Shown: positions 14,107 to 63,971 of the stretch, piece after piece
Layout: each line of letters begins with the position of its first letter
How positions within the stretch are numbered: the first letter of the stretch is position 1
Source: Halorarum salinum
GTDB lineage: Archaea > Halobacteriota > Halobacteria > Halobacteriales > Haloferacaceae
Assembly (NCBI RefSeq): GCF_013402875.1
Contig: NZ_CP058579.1
Coordinates: 1,426,001-1,490,000 of the forward strand
Direction: 5' to 3'
Length of the DNA: 64,000 nt
Notes under the pieces: generated by a model
Told to the model about the DNA's origin: nothing
Databases searched by the model: none
What the model saw: the letters and a program-made list of their open reading frames with translations, nothing else
Translations under genes and position numbers: made by a program

Positions 14107-14618
14107 TCGTGTCCACGGGTGTCGGTGACGGGCTTTACCGTTTGCGTGTCGCTGGCGGGTGGGCAGGATACGGCTGCCAGGGAGGTTTCGACGAGTGACG
14201 GACACGGAAGGCTCCCACGAATCTCGGCTCCCCGGTTCGGTCGGTCGTCGCGACACGGTCCTCGAAAGCCCCCGCGGCCGTCGGCCCGGTGCGGCCGCTA
14301 TCGTTCGAAAGGCGCGAAGCGCCTTTCGTGATTCTGTCAGGTTCGAGAGGAACCTTACCGCAAGCGGGAAATCCTTGATTTCCCGCACTGACGAGACGCC
14401 GAAGGCGTCTCGAACCGCGCTCCTCAGTCGCTCACTCCGTTCGCTCCTCAGTCGCTCACTCCGTTCGCTCCTTGCGGTGTTTGACGGTCCGCGCCTACGG
14501 AAGACCCGCTCCGCCCCTCTTCCGAGTTCTCGTTCGTTGCGCTCACTCCGCTGCGGCTCTTCGCCTGAATCGTCCCCGGGAAAAGCCTATGGCGCGTCTA
14601 CACGTACCACGCCCGACC
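14107..14618. other. Intergenic region holding a multi-hairpin repeat and GAAAGCCCCCGC element
   Basis: 512 bases with no supported gene. It contains the word GAAAGCCCCCGC (14264-14275, also found twice at 45 kb), the multi-hairpin element described separately (14306-14416), and two direct copies of a roughly 26-base unit beginning CTCCTCAGTCGCTC (from 14420 and 14446). The rest is skewed C/T-rich sequence. Long open frames crossing it are by-products of the repeat. Confidence 0.6.
14306..14416. repeat. Multi-hairpin repeat element, copy A
   Basis: Four perfect hairpins in a row. HP1: stem CGAAAGGCGC, loop GAA (14306-14328). HP2: stem AGGTTC, 5-base loop (14339-14355). HP3: stem GCGGGAAATC, loop CTT (14364-14386). 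HP4: stem GAGACGCC, loop GAA (14393-14411), followed by GAACC. The spacers TGATnCTGn and ACTGAC are shared with copy B at 34729-34836. HP1 is identical in both copies, whereas HP2-HP4 differ in sequence but keep pairing. Confidence 0.75.
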
Positions 14619-34486: not shown

Positions 34487-34728
34487 GTTCGACGGGGGTC
34501 ACCCGATATGAAGTGTCTTGTGGGATCGTTGCAGCACGTCGAAAAGTGCCAGGTGGCCAGATGATGTTTTAAACGGATCTGAGCGTATCGCTCTCGGCCT
34601 CCTGTTTCACTCGGCGCGCGGCGGCCGCGCTCCGCGCGGCCGCCCGTGCGAGGGACGAGCACCGTAGTGGAGTGAGCGGAGCGAACGGAACGAGAAGCAC
34701 GGTGGCTGCTCACGCGAGCGGAGTCGTT

Positions 34729-34836
34729 CGAAAGGCGCGAAGCGCCTTTCGTGATGCTGCCAGATTCCGCAGGAATCTGGCCGCTGACGGGAACTCCCCG
34801 AGTTCCCGTACTGACGAAAATCTTCGATTTTCGAAC
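34729..34836. repeat. Multi-hairpin repeat element, copy B
   Basis: Same architecture as 14306-14416. HP1: stem CGAAAGGCGC, loop GAA, identical (34729-34751). HP2: stem CAGATTCC, loop GCA (34761-34779). HP3: stem CGGGAACTC, loop CCC (34788-34808). HP4: stem CGAAAATC, loop TTC (34815-34833). Spacers TGATGCTGC and TACTGAC match copy A closely. The stems of HP2-HP4 differ from copy A on both sides in step. Confidence 0.75.
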
Positions 34837-35084
34837 CACGAGGGTGAGTTCCGAGGTACGGGAGGGTGAGGCTGCGGTGCGGCGGGCGGCCCCTTTCGGG
34901 AACTGCTCCCCGACGACTGTCCCGATTCCGGAGCCAATCGATACAGGGCTTTCGAGGACTGCTCCACGATGACTTGTTCAGTTCCGGGGTCATACGCGAC
35001 GAGTACGTCCCAGCCGTCCTCCGTCCCGTCGCCGACCCCGATTCGGACGAACCGAAACTACCGTTCCACGGCAACGCGGCGGGG

Positions 35085-44973: not shown

Positions 44974-45394
44974 GTCGGGGGCGGGCGCTTAGTCGTTGTG
45001 CTGCGACCCGTCGGTTCGGCGCTCGGGACCTCGTCCGAAACCGGTTCCTCCGACAGGTACCCGCCGAAGGCGGACGGGACGTCCGTGAAAGCCCCCGCAG
45101 TTCTCGACCTGTGGGCCGACGTGGCGGTCGCGAGGCAGTTCCCGAAAGCCCCCGCGGCGCTTGACTCGGTGCGGCCGCCGCGTTCCTCGACTCGCTTCGT
45201 TCGTCCGCGGTGCTCGGCGGTCCGCGCCTTCGTCCAGCGCCGTGGCCCCTTTCAGTCCCGCCCGTGGCCGGCTTGGAGAGTCGCTGTCCACGGCTGGTTA
45301 GACATCGTCACCCGTGGCCGATCAGAAGTCGTCGCGTGCAGTCGGTCGGACGGCGTCGATCGCGGTGGTCCGGCGGCCGTCGCCGGTCGGGAAC
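44974..45394. repeat. Intergenic region with direct GAAAGCCCCCGC elements
   Basis: 421 bases without a gene. The word GAAAGCCCCCGC occurs at 45087-45098 and 45144-45155, 57 bases apart, and once more at 14264-14275 next to repeat copy A. A C/T-rich tract CGTCCGCGGTGCTCGG follows, ending at CCCCTTTCAGTCCCGCCC. I recall similar intergenic blocks in other haloarchaea but cannot give their role. Confidence 0.45.
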
Positions 45395-62192: not shown

Positions 62193-63971
62193 TCAGTCCC
62201 GCTTCGCCTTCGGATTCGTCACGGCTCCGTTAGCGGCGCTCCCGAAGTCCCGGGCGTACTTCGCCAGCACGCCGCCCGTGTACGCGGGTTCCCGGGGCTC
62301 CCACGCGCCCGCCCGCCGCTCCAGTTTCTCGTCGTCCACGTCCACCGACAGCTCCCGGTTCGGGATGTCGACGGTCACCGTGTCGCCGTCCTCCACGAGG
62401 CCGATGGGGCCGCCCTCGGCCGCCTCGGGTGCGACGTGGCCGACCATCGGCCCCCGGGTCGCCCCCGAGAAGCGGCCGTCGGTGAGCAGCGCCACGTCGT
62501 CCTCGTGGCCTGCGCCGACGACCGCGGCCGTGACGCCGAGCATCTCGCGCATCCCCGGTCCGCCGCGGGGCCCCTCGTTCCGGATGACGAGCACGTCGCC
62601 CGACTCGATGTCGCCCGACTGGACGTACGCCATCGCCTCCTCCTCGTCCTCGAACACGCGCGCGGGGCCCTCGTGGTGGAACGCGTCGTCGCCGGTGACC
62701 TTCAGCACCGCGCCGTCGGGCGCGAGGTTCCCCGTGAGGACCTTGATCGCGCCCTCCTCCTGGTACGGCTCGTCGACGGTGTAGAGGAAGTCCGCCTCGA
62801 TGGAATCGTCTTCGGGGAGCGCGCCGCGCTCCTCGAGATGGGCGAGTTCCTCGGCGATCGTGCGGCCGGTGACGGTCATCGCGTCGCCGTGGAGGTAGCC
62901 GCCCGCGAGCAGGCGCCGCATCACGACCGGGACGCCGCCGACCTCGTGGAGGTCGAGCATGACGCGCGTGCCCCCGGGTTGGAGGTTGGCGATCTTGGGG
63001 GTCCGGCGGGAGATCTCGTCGAACTCCTCGATCGAGAGGTCGACGTCGGCCTCCGCCGCGAGCGCGAGCAGGTGGAGCACCGCGTTGGTCGACCCGCCCA
63101 TCGCCACCTGCACTGCGATGGCGTTCTCGAACGACTCGCGGCTGACGACGTCCGAGGGGCGGCGATCCTGCTCGACGCACTCCAGCGCGAGTTCGCCCGC
63201 GCGGCGCGCGACGTCGAGCCGTTCCTCGGACTCGGCGGGCGGGGAGGCGGCCCCCAGCGGCGCGAGCCCGAGCGCCTCGGAGATGGAGGCCATCGTGTTC
63301 GCGGTGAACATCCCGCCACAGGAGCCCGCGCCGGGGCAGGCGTGCCGCTCCAGATCGTCGAGTTCCTCGGCGGACATCTCGCCCTCTGCGTAGGTGCCGA
63401 CGCCCTCGAAGACGTTCTGGACGGTGACGTCCCGCCCCTCGTGCTCGCCGGGCATGATCGAACCGCCGTAGAGGAACACGGAGGGGAGGTCGGTCCGGAC
63501 GGCCGCCATCATCATCCCGGGGAGGTTCTTGTCACAGCCCGCGACCGTCACCAGCGCGTCCACGCGCTCGCCGAACGAGACGAGTTCGACGGAGTCGGCG
63601 ATGACCTCCCGCGAGATGAGGCTGGCCTTCATCCCCTCGGTTCCCATCGAGATGGCGTCCGAGATGGTGACGGTGCCGAACTCGACGGGCATCCCGCCGG
63701 CGTTCTCGATCCCCTCGCGGGCGGCCCCCGCGACGTCGTCGAGGTGGACGTTGCAGGGGGTGACGTCCGCGGCGGGGTTCGGGATGGCGACCATCGGCGA
63801 GGAGAGGTCGCGGTCGTCGTAGCCCATCGCGCGGAACATCGCGCGGTGGGGCGCGCGCTCGGCCCCGGCGGTGACCTCGTGGCTCGGGAGCTCCTCCGAC
63901 TTGTCCCCGGCGAACCGCTCCTCGTCGTGTGCTCCGTCCGGTTCGCGGTCCGGGGCCTGCTGGTTGCTCAT
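62193..63971 (-). CDS. ilvD: Dihydroxy-acid dehydratase
   Basis: 592 aa, full length. It dehydrates 2,3-dihydroxy acids in valine, isoleucine and leucine synthesis, using an Fe-S cluster. Cluster Cys: [20 protein letters not shown] and [56 protein letters not shown] and [20 protein letters not shown] are family blocks. The N-terminus has about 25 extra acidic residues. The start at 63971 is the ATG of [13 protein letters not shown]. It is convergent with the GNAT gene, 21 bases apart; no other ilv gene is in the window. Confidence 0.95.

Follow-up and report, generated by a model that had tools for sequence, protein, structure and literature searches.

Which molecule is conserved when a repeat changes the letters of its hairpins and keeps them paired? 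The question is raised by two distant copies of a four-hairpin repeat in a 64,000-nt stretch of DNA (hereafter the window), which is contained in the 4.26-Mb genome of Halorarum salinum. The initial annotation had read the paired differences between these copies as compensatory change under selection on a structure, either RNA or extruded DNA. Inspection of the sequence reproduced the coordinates, hairpin order and spacer words given there for both copies, which proved to be members of a larger family. The description as a four-hairpin repeat stands; the modular nesting of hairpin pairs and the insertion-like behaviour were not visible from two copies. The family apparently consists of tiny mobile DNA elements, present almost throughout the haloarchaea, which keep their folded shape and not their letters.

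Two covariance models were used, R1 built from 11 four-hairpin copies and R2 from 8 two-hairpin copies. Copy 1 (14301-14416, forward strand; R1 match 119 bits, E 9.9e-30), delimited by its sequence and by comparison of filled with empty sites, is made up of an outer doublet, HP1 and HP4, and a nested inner doublet, HP2 and HP3; its right end is AACC|GCG, not AACCA|CG. The hairpins of copy 1 are HP1 (14306-14328, 10 bp, loop GAA), the core of HP2 (14339-14355, 6 bp, loop GAGAG), HP3 (14364-14386, 10 bp, loop CTT) and HP4 (14392-14412, 9 bp, loop GAA), all on the forward strand. Copy 2, on the same strand (34724-34838, TCGTT...AACCA; R1 match 137 bits, E 2e-34), has HP1 (34729-34751, 10 bp, loop GAA), HP2 (34759-34781, 10 bp, loop GCA, of the GNA type), HP3 (34787-34809, 10 bp, loop CCC, which is GGG in copies L005 and L006) and HP4 (34815-34833, 8 bp, loop TTC). 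As claimed, HP1 is the same in both copies (CGAAAGGCGC.gaa.GCGCCTTTCG). The claim that the other stems differ and still pair perfectly holds for HP3 and HP4, but HP2 of copy 1 is short: 6 perfectly paired bp enclose a 5-nt loop (AGGTTC.gagag.GAACCT), a decayed version of the hairpin in other copies, against 10 bp and a 3-nt loop in copy 2. When folded as DNA, both copies on both strands gave z-scores of -6.6 to -9.7, and none of 200 shuffled sequences folded equally well. The 10.3 kb of intergenic DNA in the window holds eight perfect triloop hairpins of at least 8 bp, seven of them within the two copies. The sole other strong intergenic triloop hairpin of the window, an 11-bp perfect hairpin with a TCC loop (34620-34644), lies just upstream of copy 2. 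At 62808-62862 R2 gave a weak match, which was dropped because inspection showed no recognisable unit there.

Collection of further copies revealed how the repeat is assembled. The basic unit, of about 60 nt, is TCGTT-HP1-TGATGA-HP4-AACCA, or GTCGTT-HP1-TGATGA-HP4-AACCAC with its flanking letters, and its ends form a short, imperfect inverted pair (TCGTTCGA / TGGTTCGA). The four-hairpin form is this unit with a second doublet, HP2-HP3, placed at TGATG^A, so that the linker reads TGATG|CTG-HP2-CNGCTGA-HP3-TACTG|ACGA, and six-hairpin forms from other genera (L052, L056, L057) carry two inner doublets; element sizes range from about 60 to 118 nt. Of 100 anchored chains, 75 carry two hairpins, 21 four, three six and one three, which indicates that the hairpins occur in pairs. 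Low-GC genomes have a more symmetric unit (GTCGTY-HP-TGATCA-HP-RACGAC). Further doublet families with other linker words were also seen (L055, L058, L272, L293, L284, L289), for example GTCC-HP-TGTGCGA-HP-CAACG and CAAAATCTT-HP-GACCTC-HP-TTAGCTTCGATG; the latter is found with and without an inserted inner doublet (L284 versus L289), a difference which shows that nesting is general.

The Halorarum salinum genome contains eight strong four-hairpin copies and about a dozen two-hairpin copies (R1 and R2). R1 has matches in 110 of the 148 family genomes, and R2 in 254 of the 293 Halobacteriales genomes and 77 of the 87 genera, per-genome counts in these large searches being at-least values. A phylum-wide sample of 295 genomes yielded 51 with a match, every one of them from Halobacteriales. 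Copies were collected with genus-seeded models and anchor words, so conservation is inflated within the anchors and not in flanks, tips or loops. The HP1 half is also present in intergenic DNA of Haladaptatus plasmids. A search of a viral collection gave no exact match to the element, and a pattern scan of genome contigs, from which haloarchaeal records were apparently left out, returned only unrelated bacterial chance matches. No description of this hairpin-doublet family was found in the open-access literature searched, which is not proof of its absence; the text of RepRanger (PMC12306157) does not mention haloarchaea.

Alignment A1 has 97.3% of its cells paired, a share that falls to 26-51% if partners are displaced by one to three columns, and two-sided changes occur in 11 pairs. 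Among 98 two-hairpin units, with 23 distinct HP1 stems and 19 distinct HP4 stems, 1781 of 1807 pairs (98.6%) are Watson-Crick, although the copies share ancestry and pair counts are not independent events. Pairing extends to 96-97% of positions in distinct stems of fixed length, compared with 77-81% in shuffled stems. The words GTT/CGA, TGATGA and AACCA are conserved in nearly all of 96 distinct copies, and the feet of the stems are nearly fixed, while the tips vary in sequence and length, several tips being common to HP1 and HP4. The initial annotation had named stem-breaking changes in more copies as what would refute it; the further copies leave the stems intact, and in their number they support selection on, or active maintenance of, the structure. 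However, the compensation is not simply site by site: copies swap entire tips and stem lengths, and near-identical copies carry loops that are exact reverse complements of one another. In the Halorarum salinum genome itself, a loop changes from ACA to TGT with unchanged stems (L149/L152); two exact flips distinguish L039 from L041, TCC becomes GGA in L147/L153 and in L244/L245, and GTT becomes AAC in L211/L213. Other loop substitutions are also common in more distant pairs.

Exchange of tips together with loop flips is what hairpin inversion or template switching leaves behind; such a process can by itself also perfect the arms, so that covariation need not accrue by single compensating mutations. 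Mutation might even account for the whole structure, with template switching perfecting arms and flipping loops, ordinary recombination spreading the copies, and neither selection nor dedicated mobility involved. The exact flips, the symmetric changes in arm length and the shared pool of stem tips agree with such an origin, which we nevertheless consider unlikely, since it leaves unexplained the linker and end words fixed across the order, the loop preference and the exact empty joins described below.

Of the two molecules left open by the initial annotation, RNA or extruded DNA, the evidence favours DNA. A structured RNA, namely an sRNA or UTR element whose hairpins act after transcription and whose compensatory changes keep RNA pairing, would fit the strong stem covariation; the hairpins fold as RNA too, and elements that directly follow stop codons contain related inner doublets. 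Several properties of the family argue against it and make it very improbable. Each of the 58 copies checked in the genus is intergenic (genes called by a codon-usage script); the neighbouring genes may be divergent, convergent or tandem, the copies point either way with no consistent orientation to them, and the unit often matches the model on both strands at one place. Selection on RNA pairing should tolerate G.U, yet among mismatches in the 98 two-hairpin units G.T (n = 9) is not commoner than A.C (n = 8). Loops occur in both senses: 149 of 191 are GNA or its reverse complement TNC (GNA 61, TNC 88), compared with 8 of 115 triloop hairpins in coding regions and 22 of 167 in shuffled intergenic DNA, and 184 of the 191 are closed by a C-G pair. 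Inner-hairpin loops are less often GNA or TNC (24 of 54). No Rfam family matched the element at gathering score, the only match in the window being a tRNA. Thus, intergenic location without an orientation rule, strand symmetry, lack of a wobble excess, GNA/TNC loops and loop flips together point to a structure that acts as DNA, not RNA.

DNA mini-hairpins with GNA loops are described as extraordinarily stable, GCGAAGC melting at 78 C (PMC4686876). The similar numbers of GNA and TNC loops fit a duplex that extrudes on either strand, and the GNA loops may be linked to hairpin stability in vivo at high salt. The property conserved in the family is that its DNA can form C(GNA)G-type mini-hairpins, with words and feet fixed and with tips and loop sense free as long as the arms pair.

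Two specific RNA candidates were also rejected. The GTGATGA linker resembles the C box (RUGAUGA) of C/D box sRNAs, but the D box CTGA is missing from the consensus two-hairpin unit. Intrinsic terminators were dismissed because divergent genes flank 13 of the 25 four-hairpin copies and the unit is not trailed by a T tract; intergenic terminators of Haloferax are T stretches (PMC7237163). Protein-coding meaning was rejected as well. The forward frame (...SRTDE) is open in both window copies, as had been noted, but in only 7 of the 11 four-hairpin copies, being closed in the other four, and 10 of the 11 keep the reverse -1 frame open, so openness simply comes with palindromes rich in GC. On two annotated Haladaptatus plasmids, no annotated gene covers the element match.

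Conservation stops sharply at the ends of the unit. For 119 filled flanks, empty joins were sought elsewhere in the collected loci as 24-mers across the ends TCGTT...AACCA with at most two mismatches, and exact joins were found for 27. In an offset control on two-hairpin copies with at most one mismatch, the exact boundary gave 10 joins, one-base slides gave 4, 7 and 2, and nearly all other offsets gave 0-2. The joins show neither duplication nor loss, and most target sites read (C/G)(T/A)G^CG within intergenic repeats that are rich in GC; because most empty sites are low-complexity repeats of this kind, some joins may be due to chance, though the offset control is clean. Copy 1 itself splits a host repeat, whose left part (CGAAAGCCCCCGCGG...GGTGCGGCCGCT) lies at 14263-14300 on the forward strand, as revealed by alignment to 45135-45190 and by empty-site comparison; the same host repeat occurs on the forward strand at 45143-45262 in empty form, without the hairpin element. 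These comparisons suggest that the unit is mobile, and filled and empty pairs would fit insertion and precise loss alike. The host repeat belongs to a wider haloarchaeal repeat, CGAAAGCCCCCGCGGC(T)GTCGGCTCGGTGCGGCCGC ... TGCGGTGCTTGACGGTCCGCGCC ... GGCCCCTTTCAGTCCCACC, whose outer parts are complementary and inside which many units sit. The word GTGGGACTGAAAG in it resembles the end of haloarchaeal CRISPR repeats.

Occupancy also differs between congeners. Copy 1 is flanked by divergent genes for tmk and a small zinc protein, a pair conserved in congener G002, where about 340 bp of the tmk locus including the element are missing. At an orthologous convergent gene pair in two congeners (L200 at G000:C1:477397 and L216 at G001:C1:3151851), one element has two hairpins and the other four, and their orientation is opposite, which suggests that orientation or occupancy turns over in place. 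A few sites common to congeners indicate that some copies are old. The family could instead mark chromosomal landmarks, DNA sites for a host architectural or recombination protein that are selected for the cell and not selfish, like the BIME sites for gyrase or IHF. Linker words conserved across the order, exclusively intergenic location and strand symmetry would all suit such a role. Positions and hairpin numbers that differ between congeners, widely varying copy number, presence on Haladaptatus plasmids and nested doublets with exact junctions speak against it, and we regard it as a distinctly improbable explanation.

Comparison with known systems narrows the assignment. In REPINs the replicative unit is a hairpin doublet with compensatory changes (PMC3116915). 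REPINs and BIMEs, like the haloarchaeal unit, are extragenic, dispersed and clustered doublets of small palindromes with compensatory changes and without their own gene (PMC3116915, PMC3733652), and the even hairpin numbers and the intergenic position of all 58 copies agree with this pattern. Doublet excision was seen for REPINs (PMC3116915, PMC3733652), whereas the evidence here consists of comparative empty joins. REPINs and BIMEs carry a GTAG tag and are associated with a RAYT, while the haloarchaeal unit has no GTAG tag and the genus no RAYT-type enzyme (PMC3733652); neither GTAG nor CGTC foot tags were found, CGTC-like feet occurring only in the low-GC genome G007. Furthermore, REP palindromes are conserved in sequence, whereas the haloarchaeal stem tips vary freely and loops flip, and the haloarchaeal doublets differ from REPINs in nesting inside one another and in being archaeal and order-wide. 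CGTC-tagged REPs likewise form dimers of short palindromes for which no dedicated transposase is known, but they have A-T feet and 4-5-nt loops instead of C-G feet and 3-nt loops (PMC3733652), and the phyla given for them in that study are all bacterial.

The SMRs of Haloquadratum walsbyi share several traits with the unit, being haloarchaeal, too short for a transposase, bounded by inverted ends, free of target duplication and, like our unit, prone to sit in other repeats or palindromes (PMC3119063). They measure 80-110 bp and were reported in one species, while the outer unit here is about 60 bp with short, imperfect ends (PMC3119063). The absence of a transposase, the inverted ends and the joins without target duplication are found in our family too; the SMRs (HqIRS40-43/55) were compared by description only, and possible relatives were seen in low-GC genomes. 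PATEs also resemble the unit, since in their terminal-only form two near-terminal palindromes are fused into about 52 bp, again without target duplication, but they lack inverted ends and derive from IS605-type ends (PMC3119063), and our hairpins are absent at most TnpB loci examined. In the absence of tag and RAYT, and given the traits shared with SMRs and PATEs, we classify the family as miniature palindromic mobile DNA and not as a REPIN.

Taken together, the feature is probably a haloarchaeal miniature mobile DNA element of hairpin doublets, REPIN/SMR-like and moved by a putative hairpin-recognising enzyme. By analogy with RAYTs, which are thought to move REPINs, a putative trans-acting enzyme would move the doublet as single-stranded or cruciform DNA, and it may recognise the shape of the doublet together with its linker and end words. 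At the palindromes, loop flips and perfect arms would result from hairpin inversion or template switching. A resident IS200/RAYT enzyme was rejected, as PF01797 (the Y1 transposase domain of IS200 and RAYT enzymes) was absent from all three genomes of the genus, with a positive control in Haloferax volcanii. As for TnpB ends, TnpB is nearly absent in the genus, and of the 30 TnpB loci taken from relatives only a few have related hairpins nearby, as scattered matches. More tentatively, and with less than even confidence, the elements could belong to a haloarchaeal transposition system, non-Y1/RAYT in at least this genus, with an enzyme that recognises the hairpin doublets mainly by shape and so allows stem sequence to drift freely; several related families of doublets would then enter each other as well as host repeats, and would have spread order-wide.

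If the mobile-element interpretation is true, the family is an archaeal, order-wide counterpart of REPINs that keeps structure and not sequence and lacks the transposase to which REPIN movement is ascribed. With the natural loop flips and the GNA/TNC preference, extrusion of DNA hairpins in living cells becomes directly testable in genetically tractable haloarchaea. The family also calls for caution, because near-perfect stem covariation, the usual proof of a structured RNA, can originate at the DNA level.

A separate element was observed right after stop codons, AACCTCTTTTGCGGGGG...CCCCGCAAAACCCGTTCATG, oriented with the upstream gene and followed by doublets resembling HP2-HP3. It was found in G000:C1 at 832180, 457469, 1529203, 3529892, 1667044, 2432447 and 2361325 and in G002 at G002:C1:1768474 (L228-L230, L232-L235, L246), and looks like a 3'UTR or terminator element with inner doublets inserted after ATG.
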